64,000 nucleotides of DNA from Bosea sp. Tri-49 (GTDB taxonomy: Bacteria; Pseudomonadota; Alphaproteobacteria; Rhizobiales; Beijerinckiaceae): NCBI RefSeq assembly GCF_003952665.1, contig NZ_CP017946.1, positions 3,286,001 through 3,350,000 of the forward strand. The letters run 5' to 3'. How positions within the stretch are numbered: the stretch's first letter is position 1; each line of letters starts with the position of its first letter. Below are positions 10,188 through 47,288 of the stretch, piece by piece. The notes under the pieces are model-generated. The model was not told the origin of the DNA. It saw nothing but the letters and a program-made list of their open reading frames with translations, and searched no databases. The position numbers and the translations under genes are program-made.

Positions 10188-10371
10188 GCGGCCCCCCTCC
10201 CGCCGTGCCAATAAGCCCTCCTTATCGGCCGTGGACGGCAGGGGCTTAGTTAAACCCAAATTAACGTTGCGGCAGGATGGTCTGCCGCATGGAGTTCGCC
10301 TTTCCATCGCGAAGCAGAGCTCGAAACCTGCCGCATACCCTGCCGGCACCGACCAGGGACTCGTGAGCTCA

Positions 10372-37967: not shown

Positions 37968-38404
37968 GACCGGCCACCGGGACGTCTCTTCTTAGCACGG
38001 TCGATTGCGGCACAACTGCGGCGCCATGGGTCTCGGGATGGGACAGCCCTGTTCCGCGCCGCTGTCGGCCGATCTCCCGCGGCTGTGCGCGCGCTGTTCC
38101 AGATGCCAGTGCCCAAAGCACTGGTAAGCGACGCAAGGCTCTGTCCCGTTTGGTAAAATTTTCCTTATCTCGGCAACCCTGACCGAATGGTGGTAGGGTG
38201 GCACGCCCATTGCGTGCATCGCCAGCACGATAGCGGCGCCTAGGAAACAACCGAAGGGGACGCTTTTCACTGGTGAGCCGACTTGAGGCGTAACCAATAA
38301 AACTTAAGTAAATTAACCATTTCCGGTGGTTTGCGTTTACAGATCATTAACTTTGTCTACCCTCGGCGGCGTCGAGGGGTGCGATGCGAGGCGGAGACAA
38401 GACG
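37968..38404. other. 437-base spacer upstream of rpfF-like gene
   Basis: No gene I can support lies here. The right part (about 38285-38350) is A+T-rich for this genome, with TTAAGTAAATTAACCAT and a possible promoter (TTTACA about 16 bases before TACCCT) 40-70 bases ahead of the RpfF-like gene. An inverted repeat CCAGTGC/GCACTGG with a 5-base centre lies at 38106-38124. The size of the spacer suggests regulated expression of the downstream gene. Confidence 0.5.
38106..38124. repeat. 19-base palindrome CCAGTGC-N5-GCACTGG
   Basis: Perfect 7-bp arms around CCAAA, about 280 bases upstream of the RpfF-like gene. It could be an operator for a dimeric regulator or a hairpin; there is no T-run. No adjacent regulator gene suggests which. 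Confidence 0.3.
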
Positions 38405-39367
38405 ATGTTTCAGAGCTATGCACCCACGGCTGGCGGGCAGACCGCTGCCGAGCTCACCAACGGCGATGTGATCGAGGCGATCCGCCACCACGCTGGCTTC
38501 CTGCCGGAGGTTCAGCTCGCCTATGAGCCGGAGCTGCGCCTGCTCTGGGTCACCATCAAGCCGGAGCTGAAGCCGGTCTTCACGCTGCAGTTGCTCGAGA
38601 GCCTCGGCAAAGTGCAGCAGGCCATCATCGATCTGTGGGGCGCAGCAGAGCAGTATCACAACGCCCCGGTGCGCTTCCTTGCCTTCCGCGGCACGGGGCC
38701 GTTTTTCACCCTCGGCGGCGATCTCGACTTCTATCTCGACTGCCTCGCCAAGAACGACCGCCCCGCGCTGGCGGAATACGCCCGGCTCTCGGTCGAGGAT
38801 GCGCTGCGCAACGCCAGTGGTCTCAACGGCATGGTCGTCACCCTGTCGACGATCCACGCCAAAGCGATCGGCGGCGGCATCGATGCGCCGCGCTCATGCA
38901 ATGTCATGATCGCCGAGGAGCAGGCCTCGTTCGTCTACCCGGAGATCAAGTTCAACCATTTCCCGATCACGGCTGTCGGGCTCCTGTCGCGCCGGATGGG
39001 GCAGCGTGCAGCCGAGCACATGCTGCAGTCGGGCGAAGAGATGAGCGCCACAGAGTTCATGGCCGCGGGCGGGCTGGAAGCAGTGGTGCCGGCCGGCACG
39101 GGCGAGGACTGGCTCCGCAAATACGCCGCGGATTCGCTGCCGATCCACGCCGCCAGGACGGCGTTGTTCTCGGCCTTCAACCGCCGTTCCGGCAATCTGC
39201 GCGAGGAGCTCGAATATCTCGGCCAGCTCTGGACCGACTGCATGCTGCGCCTGCACCCGAGCGCGATCTCGAAGCTGCAGCGCATCGCCCAGACGCAGGA
39301 CCGCATGCTCTCGCGCGTCTATCAGCGAGCCCCGGAAGAACAGTTCGCGGGCGCCGGCGCAGCCTGA
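38405..39367 (+). CDS. RpfF-like crotonase, candidate DSF-family signal synthase
   Basis: A 320-residue crotonase-fold protein that fits the RpfF subgroup better than ordinary enoyl-CoA hydratases. It has GPFFTLGGDLDFYLDCL, an AKAIGGGIDAPRS/IAEEQASFVYPEIKFNHFP core and a C-terminal LGQLWTDCMLRLHPSAISKLQRIAQTQDRM helix bundle, matching the RpfF order. The two RpfF catalytic glutamates, 20 residues apart, correspond to D160 and E180, so the first is an Asp here. RpfF makes cis-2-unsaturated fatty acid signals. ATG 38405 follows GCGGAG; ATG 38384 is also in frame. A PAS-GGDEF-EAL gene follows, recalling rpfF-rpfR. Alternative: a non-signalling enoyl-CoA hydratase. Confidence 0.72.
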   Translation: MFQSYAPTAGGQTAAELTNGDVIEAIRHHAGFLPEVQLAYEPELRLLWVTIKPELKPVFTLQLLESLGKVQQAIIDLWGAAEQYHNAPVRFLAFRGTGPFFTLGGDLDFYLDCLAKNDRPALAEYARLSVEDALRNASGLNGMVVTLSTIHAKAIGGGIDAPRSCNVMIAEEQASFVYPEIKFNHFPITAVGLLSRRMGQRAAEHMLQSGEEMSATEFMAAGGLEAVVPAGTGEDWLRKYAADSLPIHAARTALFSAFNRRSGNLREELEYLGQLWTDCMLRLHPSAISKLQRIAQTQDRMLSRVYQRAPEEQFAGAGAA

Positions 39368-39380
39368 GCCGCCCGTGAAA

Positions 39381-39397
39381 AGCCGGCGTTGCCGGCT
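39381..39397. repeat. Hairpin AGCCGGC-GTT-GCCGGCT after rpfF-like gene
   Basis: Perfect 7-bp stem with a 3-base loop, 13 bases after the stop. There is no T-run on the plus strand (TTTT follows on the minus strand), so it may partly attenuate or protect the mRNA rather than terminate it. It lies in a 164-base spacer before the GGDEF-EAL gene. Confidence 0.45.
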
Positions 39398-39531
39398 GTC
39401 GCGGCGATTATGCGACTCTACCGTGTAACTCTCATGAAACTTTTACCTTTCCCTCTTAAAGCCGTTAGGTGACGCGGCATAGGACAGGTCGTTAAGCCGC
39501 CTCGCCGGAGACCGTCAAAAGGCAGGAGCGG

Positions 39532-41892
39532 ATGGCGGGAGTGCCGAACCGGTTGCGCAGCGCCAGCGCAGACAGGGCGATCGCGGAACAGCCGGCCGAG
39601 CACGACGGCCGGAACGCGGTCGACCTTGTCGATTATCGCCTGCTCGTCTCTTCACTGTTCTCTTCGCCGGGCTCGATCATTCCCGGCGGCATCGCCGGCA
39701 TCCTCACGCCACTCCTGTGCTGGATCTCGACCAGAGCCGAGCTGTTCATGGCGTTGACGCTTGGCGTCGCGCTGGTCGTCGTCATGCGGATCATCACGGT
39801 GGTCCGCTATCGTCGGCTCGACCATTCCGAGGATACGCTCGAGCTGACCCGGCGCTGGGACCGGGAGTATTTCCTCGGCGCGACCGTGTTCAGTGCGGTC
39901 CTCGGCTTCAGCTGTTATGCGGCGCTGGCCTGGACCGACGATCCCGCCGCCCACATCACCTCGGTATCCTCGACGATCGCGCTCGCCTCCGGCTACGTGG
40001 CGCGCAATGCCGGGCGGCCGAAATTCGTCGCCGTCCAGCTCCTGACCTTCTGCGTCCCGATGGCGATCGGCCTGATCCAGGCACAAAACCCGTACTACCA
40101 GTATATCGGCTATTTCGCCTTCCTCTATGTCGGCGCCAATATCGCGATCACCAACTCGCTGCATCGCAACCTGCTGGCGCTGAGTGACGCGACCAAGCAA
40201 TCCAAGGCGCTGGCAACCGCCCTGCGCTCGCAGAACCTGACGCTCGACGCCGCGCTCAACACGATGATCCATGGCCTGGCGATGTTCGACCGCAAGCTCG
40301 ATCTTGCGGTCTCGAACGCGCCGCATGCCGCTCTCTACGGGGTTCCAGAGACGCTGGCGCTGCCAGGCACGCCGATCAGCGCGATCGCCCGTTTCCTGGT
40401 CGAGCGGCAGGTGATGACGCCGGAGCAGGTGCGCGACATCAAGGCGGCACTCGACGGCGTCCGGACGACACAGCAGGCGGCCATCTACGAGCTGCAGTCG
40501 CGCAATGGCCGGATGCTCGTCGTCACCATCGCGCCTGCGGCCGAGGGCGGCGTTTTGATGCTGACCGAGGATGCGACGGAGCGGAAGGCGACCGAGGCGC
40601 GGATCGAGCAGATGGCGCGCTTCGACGAATTGACCGGGCTCGCCAACCGCTTCGAGTTCAACACACACTTGGCCGACGCTTTCCGTCGGCACGAGCGGAC
40701 CGGCGAGACCTTCGCCCTGCTCTATATCGATCTCGACGGCTTCAAGCAGGTCAACGACAATCTCGGCCATGACATCGGCGACCGGGTCCTGATCCAGACT
40801 GCCGAGCGCCTGAAGAGCACGATCCGTCACAACGACCTGCTGGCGCGCTTCGGCGGCGACGAATTCGTGCTGATCCTGCCGGCGACCGATGTCGCGACGG
40901 TCCGGATGATCGCGCAACGCATGATCGAGGCGATGGATCGGGCCTTCGAGCTCGAAACCAAGACCGTCTACGTCACTGCCAGCATCGGCATTGCGCTCGC
41001 CCCTGCCGACGGCACGACGCCCGCCGACCTGCTGCGCCATGCCGATACCGCGCTCTACAAGGCCAAGGCAGCCGGCCGCAACACCGCGACCTTCTTCGAT
41101 CCGGCCATGGCGGAAGAGATGCTCGAGCGCCACGAGATCGAGGTCGATCTACGCCTGGCCAGCGCCGAGGGCGCGCTCGAACTGTACTACCAGCCGATCA
41201 TCGACCTGCGCACGCAGGAGATCGTGACGCGCGAGGCGCTGATGCGCTGGCGGCACCCGACGCGCGGCATGGTGCCGCCCGGCGTGTTCATCCCAATCGC
41301 CGAGCAGTCCGGCCTGATCGCCGGCATGGGCGACTGGGCGATCCGCCAGGCCTGCCGCGATGCAGCAAAATGGCCCGATGGCATCGGCGTTTCCGTCAAT
41401 ATCTCGCCGCTGCAGTTCCGTGAGCCGCGTCGCATCGTTGAAACCGTCAAGACTGCGCTGCTGCTCGCCCATCTCGCGCCCGGCCGCCTGACGCTCGAAG
41501 TGACGGAATCGCTGCTGATCGAGGACAACAAGACGACGCTCGAGGTCATCAACGAGCTACGTGCGATCGGGGTGAAGTTCGCGCTCGACGATTTCGGGAC
41601 GGGCTATTCCTCCCTCGCCTATCTGTCGACCTACCCGTTCTCGCAGGTGAAGATCGACCAGAGCTTCAGCCGCGACGTCAACAGCGACGAGGCCTCAAAG
41701 GCGGTCATCGAGGCGGTGTGTCAGCTGGCCCGGCGCCTGTCGATGAATGTGGTTGTCGAAGGCATCGAAACGGAAGCGCAGCGCATGGCGGTGCAGTTGC
41801 TCGGCGCCCAGCGGGCGCAAGGCTATCTGTTCGGCCGGCCGCAGCCGGTATCGGAGTTCGGCAAGGGCGACGAACCGCGCAAGATCGCCTGA
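39532..41892 (+). CDS. Membrane PAS-GGDEF-EAL c-di-GMP signalling protein
   Basis: A 786-residue protein: an N-terminal membrane region of about five helices (residues 40-200), a PAS-like segment (about 225-345), a GGDEF domain with RFGGDEFVLILP, and an EAL domain with TREALMRWRHPTRGMVPP, the IEDNKTT helix, DDFGTGYSSLAYL and the IDQSF end. The GGDEF signature and its RxxD inhibition site (RHND five residues before) are intact, and the EAL metal motifs are present, so both synthesis and breakdown of c-di-GMP are possible. AGGAG precedes ATG. It follows the RpfF-like gene on the same strand and could be its receptor/output partner, by analogy to RpfR. Confidence 0.9.
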   Translation: MAGVPNRLRSASADRAIAEQPAEHDGRNAVDLVDYRLLVSSLFSSPGSIIPGGIAGILTPLLCWISTRAELFMALTLGVALVVVMRIITVVRYRRLDHSEDTLELTRRWDREYFLGATVFSAVLGFSCYAALAWTDDPAAHITSVSSTIALASGYVARNAGRPKFVAVQLLTFCVPMAIGLIQAQNPYYQYIGYFAFLYVGANIAITNSLHRNLLALSDATKQSKALATALRSQNLTLDAALNTMIHGLAMFDRKLDLAVSNAPHAALYGVPETLALPGTPISAIARFLVERQVMTPEQVRDIKAALDGVRTTQQAAIYELQSRNGRMLVVTIAPAAEGGVLMLTEDATERKATEARIEQMARFDELTGLANRFEFNTHLADAFRRHERTGETFALLYIDLDGFKQVNDNLGHDIGDRVLIQTAERLKSTIRHNDLLARFGGDEFVLILPATDVATVRMIAQRMIEAMDRAFELETKTVYVTASIGIALAPADGTTPADLLRHADTALYKAKAAGRNTATFFDPAMAEEMLERHEIEVDLRLASAEGALELYYQPIIDLRTQEIVTREALMRWRHPTRGMVPPGVFIPIAEQSGLIAGMGDWAIRQACRDAAKWPDGIGVSVNISPLQFREPRRIVETVKTALLLAHLAPGRLTLEVTESLLIEDNKTTLEVINELRAIGVKFALDDFGTGYSSLAYLSTYPFSQVKIDQSFSRDVNSDEASKAVIEAVCQLARRLSMNVVVEGIETEAQRMAVQLLGAQRAQGYLFGRPQPVSEFGKGDEPRKIA

Positions 41893-43462: not shown

Positions 43463-43473
43463 ATTGGCTTTTG

Positions 43474-44928
43474 ATGTCGCCGAGACGGTTCGATCCCAAT
43501 GCTCTGTCGATCAGCGTGCCGCGCGGGCCGACGCAGCTCGGCCTGTCGGCCAAGCTGCTCGTCCTGACCATCCTGTTCGTGATGTTGGCCGAGGTGCTGA
43601 TCTATCTGCCCTCGGTCGCGAACTTCAGGCGCAACTGGCTGAACGATCGGCTGGCGGCAGCACAGATCGCCGTGCTCGTACTCGAGGGTGCTCCGGCCGA
43701 AGGCATGCCCGAAGGCAGCGAGGAGCGGCTCTTGGCTGGTGTCGGTGCTTCCGCCATCGCCGCGCGTGTCGGCGGCGCGCGGCGCCTGCTCAGCCTCGAC
43801 TCAATGCCGCACGAGGTCGCCAAGACCGTCGATCTGCGCGACCAGAGCTGGATGCAGTCGATCGTGCAATCGGTGGCGACACTGGTCAGCCCGTCGCATG
43901 AGATGCCGATCCGGGTGGTCGGACAGGCGGTCGGCGCCGCCGACTTCGTCGAGATGGTGATCGACGAGCGGCCGCTGCGCCACGCGATGCTGAAATTCTC
44001 GGTCAACCTGACGCTGATCACGCTGGTCATCTCGATCCTCACGGCAGGACTGGTCTATCTCTCGCTGAACTGGCTGATCGTGCAGCCGATCCGGCATCTC
44101 GCCGCCAATGTGATGGAGTTCGAGCACGACCCGGAGAATCCGCGCCGGATCATTGAGCCGACGCTGCGCGCCGACGAGATCGGCGAAGCGCAGCGGGCGC
44201 TGGCGCGCATGCAGGCGACGCTTGCAGACGATCTTCGCGCCAAGAAGCATCTCGCCGAGCTCGGGCTCGCGGTCAGCAAGATCAACCACGACCTGCGCAA
44301 CATGCTGGCCGCGGCGCAATTAATGTCCGACCGGCTGACCGAGACACGCGATCCGAAGATAAGGCGTTTCGCGCCGCGATTGATCGCGACGCTCGGGCGC
44401 GCCATCGACTTCTGCCAGGCAACGCTCGCTTATGGCCGGGCGACCGAGGCGAACCCGACGCTGCGTGACGTGGCGCTGCGCCAGCTCGTCGCCGAACAGG
44501 CCGAGCTGCTCGGCCTCGGCGAGAACGGCACGATCATCTTCGCCAACGAGGTGCCAGCCGAGGTGATCGCCCCCTGCGATCCCGACCAGATGGCGCGGGT
44601 CCTGTCCAATCTGATGCGCAATGCGATCCAGGCGCTCGACAGCGTCGCCGAAGCAGGCGAGCGGACGCCAGCGCTCAGGATCAGCGCCGGCCGGCGTCAT
44701 GAGGAGATCATCCTGCGCATCGCCGACAATGGGCCGGGTGTGCCTGCGCGGGCCCGCGACAACCTGTTTCAGGCCTTCCGTGGCTCGGTCAATCCCGGTG
44801 GCACCGGCCTCGGCCTCGCCATCGCCGCCGAACTGGTGCGGTTGCATGGCGGCATGATCGCGCTCGAACCATCCGAGACCGGCGCGGTCTTCACGGTGTC
44901 GCTGCCGGCACAGCGCGTATTGGCCTGA
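43474..44928 (+). CDS. Membrane sensor histidine kinase
   Basis: A 484-residue sensor kinase: transmembrane helix 1 (about residues 26-46), a periplasmic domain of about 130 residues, transmembrane helix 2 (about 175-200), a HAMP-like linker (WLIVQPIRHLAANVMEFEHDP...), H-box KINHDLRNMLAAAQ, N-box NLMRNAIQALD, G boxes DNGPGVP and GGTGLGLAIAAELVRLHGG. No response regulator gene is adjacent, so it is an orphan kinase. Eleven bases after the flavoprotein, it is probably co-transcribed with it, which hints at redox or metabolite sensing. This is an inference. Confidence 0.92.
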   Translation: MSPRRFDPNALSISVPRGPTQLGLSAKLLVLTILFVMLAEVLIYLPSVANFRRNWLNDRLAAAQIAVLVLEGAPAEGMPEGSEERLLAGVGASAIAARVGGARRLLSLDSMPHEVAKTVDLRDQSWMQSIVQSVATLVSPSHEMPIRVVGQAVGAADFVEMVIDERPLRHAMLKFSVNLTLITLVISILTAGLVYLSLNWLIVQPIRHLAANVMEFEHDPENPRRIIEPTLRADEIGEAQRALARMQATLADDLRAKKHLAELGLAVSKINHDLRNMLAAAQLMSDRLTETRDPKIRRFAPRLIATLGRAIDFCQATLAYGRATEANPTLRDVALRQLVAEQAELLGLGENGTIIFANEVPAEVIAPCDPDQMARVLSNLMRNAIQALDSVAEAGERTPALRISAGRRHEEIILRIADNGPGVPARARDNLFQAFRGSVNPGGTGLGLAIAAELVRLHGGMIALEPSETGAVFTVSLPAQRVLA

Positions 44929-44985: not shown

Positions 44986-45612
44986 TTACTGGCTCGCCCA
45001 GATCACCCGCGCCATGAAGGCGATCTCGGCGAGCGCCAGCACGCGGTCGGAATGCTCTGGATTGAGCGAGGCGAGCTCGACCGTCTTCGCCGTCTGACGC
45101 CTGAGCTGCTTGGCCAGCACCTCGCCCTCGACGGTCTTGACCACAACCCGGTCGCCGCGGCGGATCGCGGCACCGGGCGAGACGATGATGGTGTCGCCGT
45201 CGCGATAGAGTGGCAGCATGGAATCGCCGGCGATCTCGAGCGCATAAGCTTTCTCGTCCTGCAGGCCCGGAAAGGCGACCTCGTCCCAGCCGGAACCGAG
45301 CGGGAAGCCGCCATCGTCGAAGAAGCCGCCGGAACCCGCCTGGGCGAAACCGATCAGCGGAATCGTATGCGCCGGCGGCGCGCCCCGCCGGATCACATTC
45401 ATGAACTCGTCGAAGGAGGCGCCGGTGGCGGCGAGGATCTTGGCGATCGATTCGGTCGAGGGCCAGCGCTCGCGTCCGTCGGTGCCGACGCGCTTCGAGC
45501 GGTTGAAGGTGGTCGCGTCGAGCCCGGCCTTGCGGGCGAGGCCCGAGGGCGTGAGGCCATAACGCTGGGCGAGCGTATCGATCGCGCTCCAGATCTGGTC
45601 GTGGGACAGCAT
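44986..45612 (-). CDS. HTH-S24 family transcriptional repressor (LexA/CI-like)
   Basis: A 208-residue protein with an N-terminal helix-turn-helix (AQRYGLTPSGLARKAGLDATTFNRSKR, residues 14-40) and a C-terminal S24 peptidase-like domain: catalytic Ser in LEIAGDSMLPLYRDGD and Lys in VVVKTVEGEVLAKQL. The layout is that of phage-CI/LexA-type regulators that can self-cleave. No phage genes are nearby, and such stand-alone copies occur in many alphaproteobacteria. ATG 45612 (MLSHDQIW) is chosen. A palindromic site just upstream suggests self-control. Confidence 0.9.
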   Translation of the reverse strand: MLSHDQIWSAIDTLAQRYGLTPSGLARKAGLDATTFNRSKRVGTDGRERWPSTESIAKILAATGASFDEFMNVIRRGAPPAHTIPLIGFAQAGSGGFFDDGGFPLGSGWDEVAFPGLQDEKAYALEIAGDSMLPLYRDGDTIIVSPGAAIRRGDRVVVKTVEGEVLAKQLRRQTAKTVELASLNPEHSDRVLALAEIAFMARVIWASQ

Positions 45613-45657
45613 CGCGGAGAGGCCTCTTTCCTGATGGTGCCTACGGGACTCTAAGCG

Positions 45658-45682
45658 GGGATAGATATAGGAAATATCCCCT
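45658..45682. promoter_or_regulatory. Candidate operator upstream of S24 repressor
   Basis: Inverted repeat GGGGATA (45658-45664) and TATCCCC (45676-45682) with an 11-base centre that holds a second, nested repeat GATAT/ATATC. It lies 46 bases upstream of the S24 repressor start, in a 237-base divergent spacer (45613-45849) that is locally A+T-rich, and fits an autoregulatory operator. Confidence 0.5.
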
Positions 45683-45849
45683 ATCTGATAAGAATTCAAT
45701 CTGATTTCTTGTACCGAGTGGCTACAGACAGCGGTTTTTTCGACCGCCAGCGGCGCTCCGGCAAGGGCGCGCCAACATCCGGGCGAAGAAATCCGAGAGC
45801 GGTCTCTGTGCGACGCGGTTTCCGCTTTTGTCGGCGGCCCGCAGGCGAT

Positions 45850-46203
45850 ATGCCCAGCGCCATGCCGCTCATCTACAAGATCTGTCCCGAAGCACTCTGG
45901 CGCGAGGCCGAGACCGCAGGCCTTTTCCAGGGAGCGCCGGTCGACCTCGCCGACGGCTTCATCCATTTCTCGACCGGCGCGCAGGTGCGCGAGACCGCAG
46001 CCAGGCATTTCGCTGGGCAGGACGGTTTGCTGCTGATCGCCATCGACGACACCATGCTTGGCGCGGCCCTGCGCTACGAGCCATCGCGCGGTGGCGCGCT
46101 GTTCCCGCATCTTTACGCCCCACTCGATCCGAAGCAGGCGCGCTGGATCGCGCCGCTGCGGCTCGGCGACGGTGGCCATGTCTTCCCGGAGGATATCGCG
46201 TGA
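45850..46203 (+). CDS. DUF952 family protein
   Basis: A 117-residue protein of the DUF952 family: [48 protein letters not shown] is diagnostic. Later [35 protein letters not shown] 45850 or ATG 45862 could be the start; both lack a strong ribosome site. It stands before pyrD, a conserved pair in alphaproteobacteria, with a GTGA overlap. Its biochemical role is not established. Confidence 0.9.
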
Positions 46204-47288
46204 TCGGAGCCCTGTTCGGCCTGGCGCGGCCGCTGATCCACAAGCTCGACGCCGAACAAGCGCACCGGCTGACGATCGCGGCACTGGCCGCGGCTCCGCC
46301 GCTGCGACCAGCGGCCGATCAGCCATCGCTCGCCGTGGAAGCCTTCGGCCTGCGCTTCGCCAATCCGGTCGGCCTTGCCGCCGGCTTCGACAAGAATGCC
46401 GAGGCGATCGACGGCGCGCTCGGGCTCGGCTTCGGCTTCGTCGAGATCGGCGGGGTGACGCCGCTGCCGCAGCCGGGCAATCCGCGCCCGCGCGTCTTCC
46501 GTCTGCCGGAGGACGAGGCGGTGATCAACCGCTATGGCCTCAACAGCGAGGGCATGGAGGCGGTCGCGGCGAGGCTGGCGGCGCGCCGCAAGAAGGGCGG
46601 CATCGTCGGCGTCAACCTCGGCGCCAACAAGGAGTCAGCCGATCGCAGCGCCGATTATGCGGTGCTGGCGAGGAGGCTCGCCCCGCTCGCCGATTTCCTG
46701 ACCGTCAACGTCTCCTCGCCGAACACGCCTGGCCTGCGCGATCTGCAGGCCGAGGACGCGCTCGACGACCTGATCGCACGCACGCTCGCCGCCCGCGACG
46801 AGGCTGCTGTCGGGGGCAAGCCGACGCCGGTGCTGATCAAGATCGCGCCCGACCTCTCCCTGTCCGAGCTCGACGGCATGGTTGCGGTCGCGCGCCGCCG
46901 CAAGGTCGACGGGATGATCGTCTCGAACACGACGATCGCCCGGCCCGAGAGCCTGCGCAGCGCGAACAAGGCCGAGACCGGCGGCCTCTCGGGCAAACCT
47001 CTGTTTGCCGCCTCGACGCGCATTCTCGCCGAGGCCTTCCTGCGGGTCGAACGCCAGTTCCCGCTGATCGGCGTGGGCGGCATCGATTCCGCCGAGACCG
47101 CCTTCGCCAAGATCCGGGCCGGAGCGAGCCTGCTGCAGTTCTACTCGGCGATGGTGTTCAAGGGTCCGGGGCTGGTCGGCGAGGTCAAGCGCGGGCTCGA
47201 CATGCAGATGCGCAAGGCCGGGCTGCCGCGCCTCGACGTGCTGGTCGGGCGCGATGCCGAAGCGATCGCACGGGGGGAGACGATCTGA
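46200..47288 (+). CDS. pyrD: Dihydroorotate dehydrogenase (quinone), class 2
   Basis: A 362-residue class 2 enzyme that oxidises dihydroorotate with membrane quinone in pyrimidine synthesis. The N-terminal amphipathic helix [22 protein letters not shown] is the membrane/quinone region. FMN/active-site motifs include [55 protein letters not shown] (catalytic Ser) and [30 protein letters not shown] 46200 overlaps the DUF952 stop (GTGA). It converges with the arginase-family gene across 40 bases that include a hairpin without a T-run. Confidence 0.97.

Follow-up and report, generated by a model that had tools for sequence, protein, structure and literature searches.

Does the crotonase encoded beside a membrane PAS-GGDEF-EAL protein in Bosea sp. 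Tri-49 make a fatty-acid signal that its neighbour reads? Both genes lie within a stretch of 64,000 nt of contig NZ_CP017946.1 (the window, whose positions are used throughout), in a genome of 6.45 Mb on two contigs from the order Hyphomicrobiales. A sequence-only reading had described them as a candidate synthase of diffusible signal factor (DSF) and a partner acting on cyclic diguanylate (c-di-GMP), similar to the rpfF-rpfR pair of Burkholderia and Cronobacter. Domain and structure searches confirmed that an RpfF-like crotonase is followed on the same strand by a membrane PAS-GGDEF-EAL protein. Sequence comparison finds such pairs in some relatives of Bosea from soil and plants as well, and they are good candidates for a fatty-acid signalling system of a new branch. 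DSF signalling is mainly known from gamma- and betaproteobacteria. None of the literature matches listed described a DSF synthase from Hyphomicrobiales, Bosea included, in a search that left subscription journals largely uncovered. The closest of them presents a FadD of Bradyrhizobium as a DSF inactivator (PMC10226988).

Pairing of the crotonase with a membrane c-di-GMP protein

The two genes, and the domains of the second, are arranged as follows (aa, amino acids).

38405..39367, + strand: RpfF-like crotonase of the Asp/Glu clade, 320 aa
39532..41892, + strand: membrane PAS-GGDEF-EAL protein, 786 aa
39676..40176, + strand: its helical N-terminal region, residues ~49-215, with six membrane helices predicted by a model and a conserved ARNAGRP
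40255..40596, + strand: PAS_7 domain, residues 242-355
40618..41082, + strand: GGDEF domain, residues 363-517, with the GGDEF motif preceded by an RxxD (RHND) site
41146..41841, + strand: EAL domain, residues 539-770, with the usual catalytic motifs

The open reading frame (ORF) of the crotonase extends from 38384 to 39367 (+) and would encode a form of 327 aa; the likely start at 38405 gives 320 aa. The genes are in tandem, separated by 164 bases, and neither a terminator nor a sigma-70 promoter was found on the + strand of this gap. A plain hydropathy scan of the membrane region of the partner gives distinct strong peaks for about four helices. The helical N-terminal region aligns over 188 residues with ImcA (PDB 8wcn), which we take to be a membrane diguanylate cyclase.

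In the window crotonase the first of the two catalytic acids of RpfF is Asp; we call such genes Asp-type, and those with both glutamates Glu/Glu. Named genomes supplied 50 loci of relatives; further ones came from searches of 297 order genomes, 248 family genomes and 289 class genomes, and of plasmids. The order search provided 40 fetched matches (38 RpfF-like) and the family search 20 (seven being copies of loci already in the set), with two more later; 18 loci were fetched from outside the order, and six of 97 plasmid records.

A membrane-GGDEF-EAL gene adjoins the Asp-type crotonase within 482 bases in all 58 loci with readable flanks (the window, L008-L057 and L161-L167; L168 runs into a contig end). 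These include Bosea, Methylocystis, Methylovirgula, Enterovirga, other Methylobacteriaceae and Jiella. Most partners are encoded downstream, those of L053-L055 and L164 upstream; the PAS domain is absent from six (L050, L161, L163 and L165-L167). Wider synteny is conserved within Bosea, so that these loci are not independent and the independent support comes from the other genera. There the flanks vary, and the most widespread third gene among 17 loci compared reaches no more than three of eight groups; both observations counter an explanation of the pairing as mere regional synteny. At 22 control loci of hydratases a GGDEF-EAL neighbour was found in none, and a lone GGDEF protein in one. The genome has 11 EAL genes; with an estimated gene number of ~6000, the chance of adjacency is ~0.4%. 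We conclude that the pairing of the crotonase with the membrane c-di-GMP protein is real.

The catalytic motifs of the partners are well preserved. Among 57 Asp-type partners GGDEF is present in 55, EAL in 54, DDFG and KID in all 57, and the RxxD of the inhibitory site in 46. The EAL pattern, which may be strict, fits six of 16 partners of Glu/Glu genes. Judged by its motifs, the window partner could possibly perform both synthesis and breakdown of c-di-GMP.

The Glu/Glu genes have two kinds of neighbour. In the order sample 14 of 38 adjoin a GGDEF-EAL protein of the same kind (L115, among these, ends before the membrane part of the partner), and 18 have an RpfC-like hybrid kinase within 2 kb; six have neither (one cut). 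Outside the order 13 of 18 have the RpfC-like kinase and five have neither (two cut). The kinases were assigned by a profile built from the same loci, and 'RpfC-like' is a name based on architecture, position and a receiver match. Four of them, typed by Pfam, are HisKA-HATPase-REC-Hpt proteins, for which the best 25 NCBIfam matches listed contain no RpfC model; the receiver of the L096 kinase matches the RpfC REC domain of 3m6m with E 2e-26. The Glu/Glu gene is convergent with such a kinase in many alphaproteobacterial families (a first set of L093, L095-L099, L101, L103, L106-L111, L113 and L117, and a second of L175-L183, L185, L186, L189 and L190). The regulator accompanying the kinase in L093 and L096 (both Pfam-typed) is a REC-PAS-GGDEF-EAL protein; in L118 and L126 the kinase lies upstream, with a REC-HisKA-HATPase protein in place of the GGDEF-EAL regulator. 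A comparison of the membrane region of the Bosea partner with the sensor region of such kinases by hhalign found no homology (probability <1%). The sensor region of the L096 kinase, as a single query, found no match in the Bosea genome.

The membrane region of the partner type occurs in 84 of the 297 order genomes by profile search. Fourteen of the 15 best-scoring places adjoin a crotonase, a proportion biased by a profile built partly from crotonase loci. The fifteenth, a membrane-PAS-GGDEF-EAL gene in genome G181, lies close to a contig end, as does a crotonase on another contig (the two are L124 and L209), and they may be neighbours.

Ancestry and active site of the crotonase

The closest sequences to the window crotonase are RpfF. 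Among the structural matches listed, five RpfF/DfsA entries outrank every other crotonase, with 5fus and 6dgn leading. In a tree with outgroup the Asp clade (16 rows, support 99/99) has the RpfF-type rows (46 rows, 92/92) as its sister group. Six other crotonases of the same genome, plain hydratases used as outgroup, form a separate clade (100/99) with which the window crotonase does not cluster; the tree program flagged long branches in this rooted tree. In this rooted tree the window crotonase is a member of a separate clade beside RpfF and not among hydratases, which supports the RpfF-like ancestry proposed earlier.

Removal of the outgroup and of five long rows placed the Asp clade next to a Glu/Glu group, f29 (96/90), and with the outgroup a topology joining the two was not rejected (p 0.23). 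Neither was one joining the Asp clade to L122, L123 and L134 (p 0.077 with and 0.23 without outgroup). In a partner tree made by a quick method the Asp-type partners form one clade (SH-like approximate likelihood ratio test 99, 22 rows), which adjoins the partners of these same three loci (89, not a starred node). Across 22 pairs, distances among the crotonases and among their partners rise together (r 0.78), as can arise from shared species history. A single origin of all crotonase/membrane-GGDEF-EAL pairs was rejected on the crotonase tree by the approximately unbiased test (p-AU 1.2e-9).

Three parts of the active site distinguish or unite the two types.

38882..38884, + strand: codon of D160, aligned to the first catalytic Glu of RpfF
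38942..38944, + strand: codon of E180, aligned to the second catalytic Glu of RpfF
38954..38968, + strand: codons 184-188, encoding NHFPI; the counterpart in most RpfF-type relatives is NLFPGM, longer by one residue

The alignment held 68 Asp-type and 98 Glu-type rows, leaving 59 (window included) and 69 when copies were dropped. Position 160 is Asp in 59/59 sequences of the clade and Glu in 69/69 RpfF-type relatives, while position 180 is Glu in every sequence of both types. The Asp noted at D160 in the first reading is thus a property of the whole clade. The catalytic glutamates of RpfF from Xanthomonas campestris pv. campestris are Glu141 and Glu161 (PMC9864630), and it is the alignment that would place D160 and E180 at the acyl site. 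By this comparison the two catalytic acids are retained, as Asp/Glu instead of Glu/Glu. The oxyanion glycines are invariant in 21/21 Asp-type representatives, and both types keep Trp276 and the glycines of GGD and GGG with few exceptions. The invariance of the two acids argues for an enzyme and against a dead one.

The loop that follows the second acid is NHFP and then I or V in all Asp-type rows, and FPGMG in nearly all Glu rows. Tyr110, Ile159, Tyr178 and His185 are likewise fixed in 21 Asp-type representatives. Met170 and Trp258 of RpfF are possible contacts to the precursor (PMC9864630); by alignment the equivalent of the former is lost in the Asp clade and that of the latter kept. Asp is shorter than Glu, and together with a rebuilt loop containing His185 this would imply a shift in substrate or chemistry. 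Search scores separate the two types (at least 368 bits for Asp-type, at most 221 bits for Glu-type). The spacing of 20 between the acids and the C-terminal helices, previously taken as specific to RpfF, are both common to ordinary crotonases.

Asp-type genes were found in 14 of 15 same-genus genomes among the matches listed (the Tri-49 genome not counted), and in Jiella outside the family. The fifteenth of these, G371, gave no Asp-type match; its Glu/Glu crotonase (L173) has an RpfC-like kinase and a GGDEF-EAL gene nearby. Four genomes of one genus (g150) carry Asp-type L165-L168 together with Glu/Glu L169-L172; for the latter the profiles found neither a GGDEF-EAL nor an RpfC-like neighbour in the fetched stretches. 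The Bosea plasmids ANAM02 and RAC05 (L130 and L134) carry Glu/Glu crotonases. That of RAC05 adjoins one membrane-PAS-GGDEF-EAL protein, with a second nearby of low EAL score; no such partner was seen in the fetched stretch of ANAM02.

CtrA-type sites upstream of the crotonase

Two sequences upstream of the crotonase resemble binding sites of the cell-cycle regulator CtrA.

38313..38320, + strand: TTAACCAT, an ungapped CtrA-type motif ending 85 nt before the crotonase start
38336..38351, + strand: TTTACAGATCATTAAC, a full CtrA-type site TTAA-N7-TTAAC with one mismatch

Published CtrA sites include TTAACC-type and TTAA-N7-TTAA motifs (PMC11527210, PMC6180460). There is one copy of TTAACCAT in the window (0.11 expected), and it falls inside a block conserved across 21 aligned upstream regions of the Bosea group. 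In this alignment ATTAACCA and TTTACA-N5-TTAA, the form in which TTTACAGATCATTAAC is conserved, are retained while their surroundings drift. By itself, the hexamer TTAACC has 4 copies in the window against 2.6 expected and so is not rare there. In the 300 bases that precede the profile match it is present at 54 of 58 Asp-type loci, including 13 of the 17 that lie outside the Bosea group; the counts are 22 of 68 for Glu/Glu loci and none of 22 for hydratase controls. Upstream of other ORFs in the Asp-type loci it occurs in 3 of 506, these being mechanical ORFs of which many are not genes. On the evidence of these conserved motifs, CtrA probably governs expression of the crotonase gene.

Another possible CtrA-type site, matching TTAA-N7-TTAAC on both strands, lies at 10249-10265 of the window. 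Beyond the pair, 43471-44928 encodes a histidine kinase-like protein with HATPase_c and without a Pfam HisKA match, and 44986-46326 (-) an S24 peptidase (LexA-like) protein with a weak helix-turn-helix match.

Function of the pair

The explanation that we prefer, to which we give an even chance of being right, is that the two genes form one functional unit, in which the crotonase makes or releases a fatty-acid signal, the membrane c-di-GMP protein reads it, and CtrA probably exerts control. The crotonase would be a divergent relative of the DSF synthase RpfF. RpfF dehydrates 3-hydroxyacyl-acyl carrier protein (ACP) and then hydrolyses the thioester (PMC6361424, PMC4504480), so by analogy the Bosea crotonase should act on an acyl thioester, most likely of ACP or coenzyme A (CoA). 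The product would be a free and probably modified fatty acid, either made or released by the crotonase. As the pairing suggests, the partner may sense this fatty acid or be bound by the crotonase; it would then alter c-di-GMP, as RpfR does with the Burkholderia signal BDSF. In RpfR, the phosphodiesterase activity towards c-di-GMP rises when DSF is bound. CtrA, presumably binding upstream, would probably set transcription of the crotonase.

The rebuilt active site (Asp160, His185 and the shortened loop) might point to a signal outside the DSF family. This extends the explanation to a form that we regard as rather doubtful, in which the Asp/Glu clade would have a signal other than the cis-2-unsaturated DSF family, a membrane c-di-GMP receptor and CtrA-controlled production. 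If true, lipid signal, c-di-GMP and cell cycle would be wired together in Hyphomicrobiales.

Several observations weigh against a signal synthase and its reader. The best NCBIfam match of the crotonase is PRK08788 (NF006452), which aligns with residues 36-310 of the 327-aa form and gives 166.4 bits, under the cut-off of 177; three Glu/Glu relatives tested reach 352-411 bits. For RpfF itself (NF053515) the score is 96.2 bits against a cut-off of 550, which is strict, since the three Glu/Glu relatives, including Burkholderia arboris RpfF, reach 187-235 bits. Both cut-offs are therefore missed. The first catalytic Glu and the FPGMG loop, near-fixed in RpfF-type relatives, are replaced throughout the clade, and the possible precursor contact Met170 (PMC9864630) sits in that loop. 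The clade is narrow in distribution, with Asp-type genes by score in 29 of 248 family genomes and, in the 297 order and 289 class genomes, in that of Tri-49 as sole carrier. Four genomes hold both types, so their functions need not be equal. Lastly, of 20 further places that encode proteins of the same layout as the partner, chosen and fetched (G181 among them), 19 are in genomes without an RpfF-like match above 130 bits; the reader module is thus not specific to the crotonase.

The comparison with known systems is similarly divided. As in Burkholderia and Cronobacter, an RpfF-like crotonase of the same fold adjoins a PAS-GGDEF-EAL protein, but the Bosea pair has Asp for the first Glu and FPI for FPGMG. 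RpfR has a soluble FI domain, where the Bosea partner has a membrane-type helical region before the PAS domain, although no search aimed at FI was made. The PAS domain is PAS_7, compared with weak generic PAS matches in the presumed RpfR of B. arboris, and the genes are tandem where rpfF and rpfR are convergent (PMC6361424). The proposed likeness to rpfF-rpfR holds for the pairing, constant in the clade and of the same partner kind in 14 of 38 RpfF-type relatives of the order. The xanthomonad RpfF-RpfC system shares a related crotonase, and Glu/Glu relatives in the order and class are often convergent with an RpfC-like kinase, but there is no kinase beside the window crotonase. As a DSF synthase the protein keeps the RpfF-like fold in its favour; the replaced acid, the rebuilt loop and the missed cut-offs tell against it.

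A different role for the crotonase is suggested by the structures of RpfF with the receiver of RpfC (3m6m) and the FI domain of RpfR (6dgn; PMC6361424), and by an inactive RpfF that still supports signalling in Xylella (PMC4504480). The Bosea crotonase might be a regulatory partner that, through direct contact, controls the membrane c-di-GMP protein, with acyl-ACP or acyl-CoA as its ligand and the Asp/Glu site serving binding or slow turnover. Strict pairing and correlated divergence would fit such a complex, although the correlation may reflect species history. The invariance of the acids and oxyanion glycines exceeds the needs of binding alone, and the partner has a membrane region in place of the soluble FI domain. 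We consider this role unlikely.

Crotonase chemistry is broad, and the protein could be a metabolic acyl-thioester enzyme, such as a thioesterase or dehydratase acting on membrane lipids; its amount would be coupled to c-di-GMP and the cell cycle, and no signal would be secreted. CtrA-type promoter sites would suit growth-linked lipid work, and the reader module also occurs without a crotonase. But no third gene is widely recurrent nearby, the constant neighbour is a sensory c-di-GMP protein and the closest relative is RpfF, so we regard this as improbable. That a plain enoyl-CoA hydratase adjoins a c-di-GMP gene by chance is very improbable and was rejected: Pfam gives ECH domains only, and some crotonases are known to have Asp as the first acid, but tree, structure and sequence all group the protein with RpfF, and the pairing persists at every readable locus despite changed gene order.

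Many alphaproteobacterial families have RpfF-type genes whose neighbours encode RpfC-like kinases or membrane c-di-GMP proteins, and the Asp/Glu clade, separate from these, is tied to one kind of c-di-GMP protein. The use of fatty-acid signals by soil and plant alphaproteobacteria becomes directly testable, as do a new product of the altered active site and cell-cycle control of such signalling.

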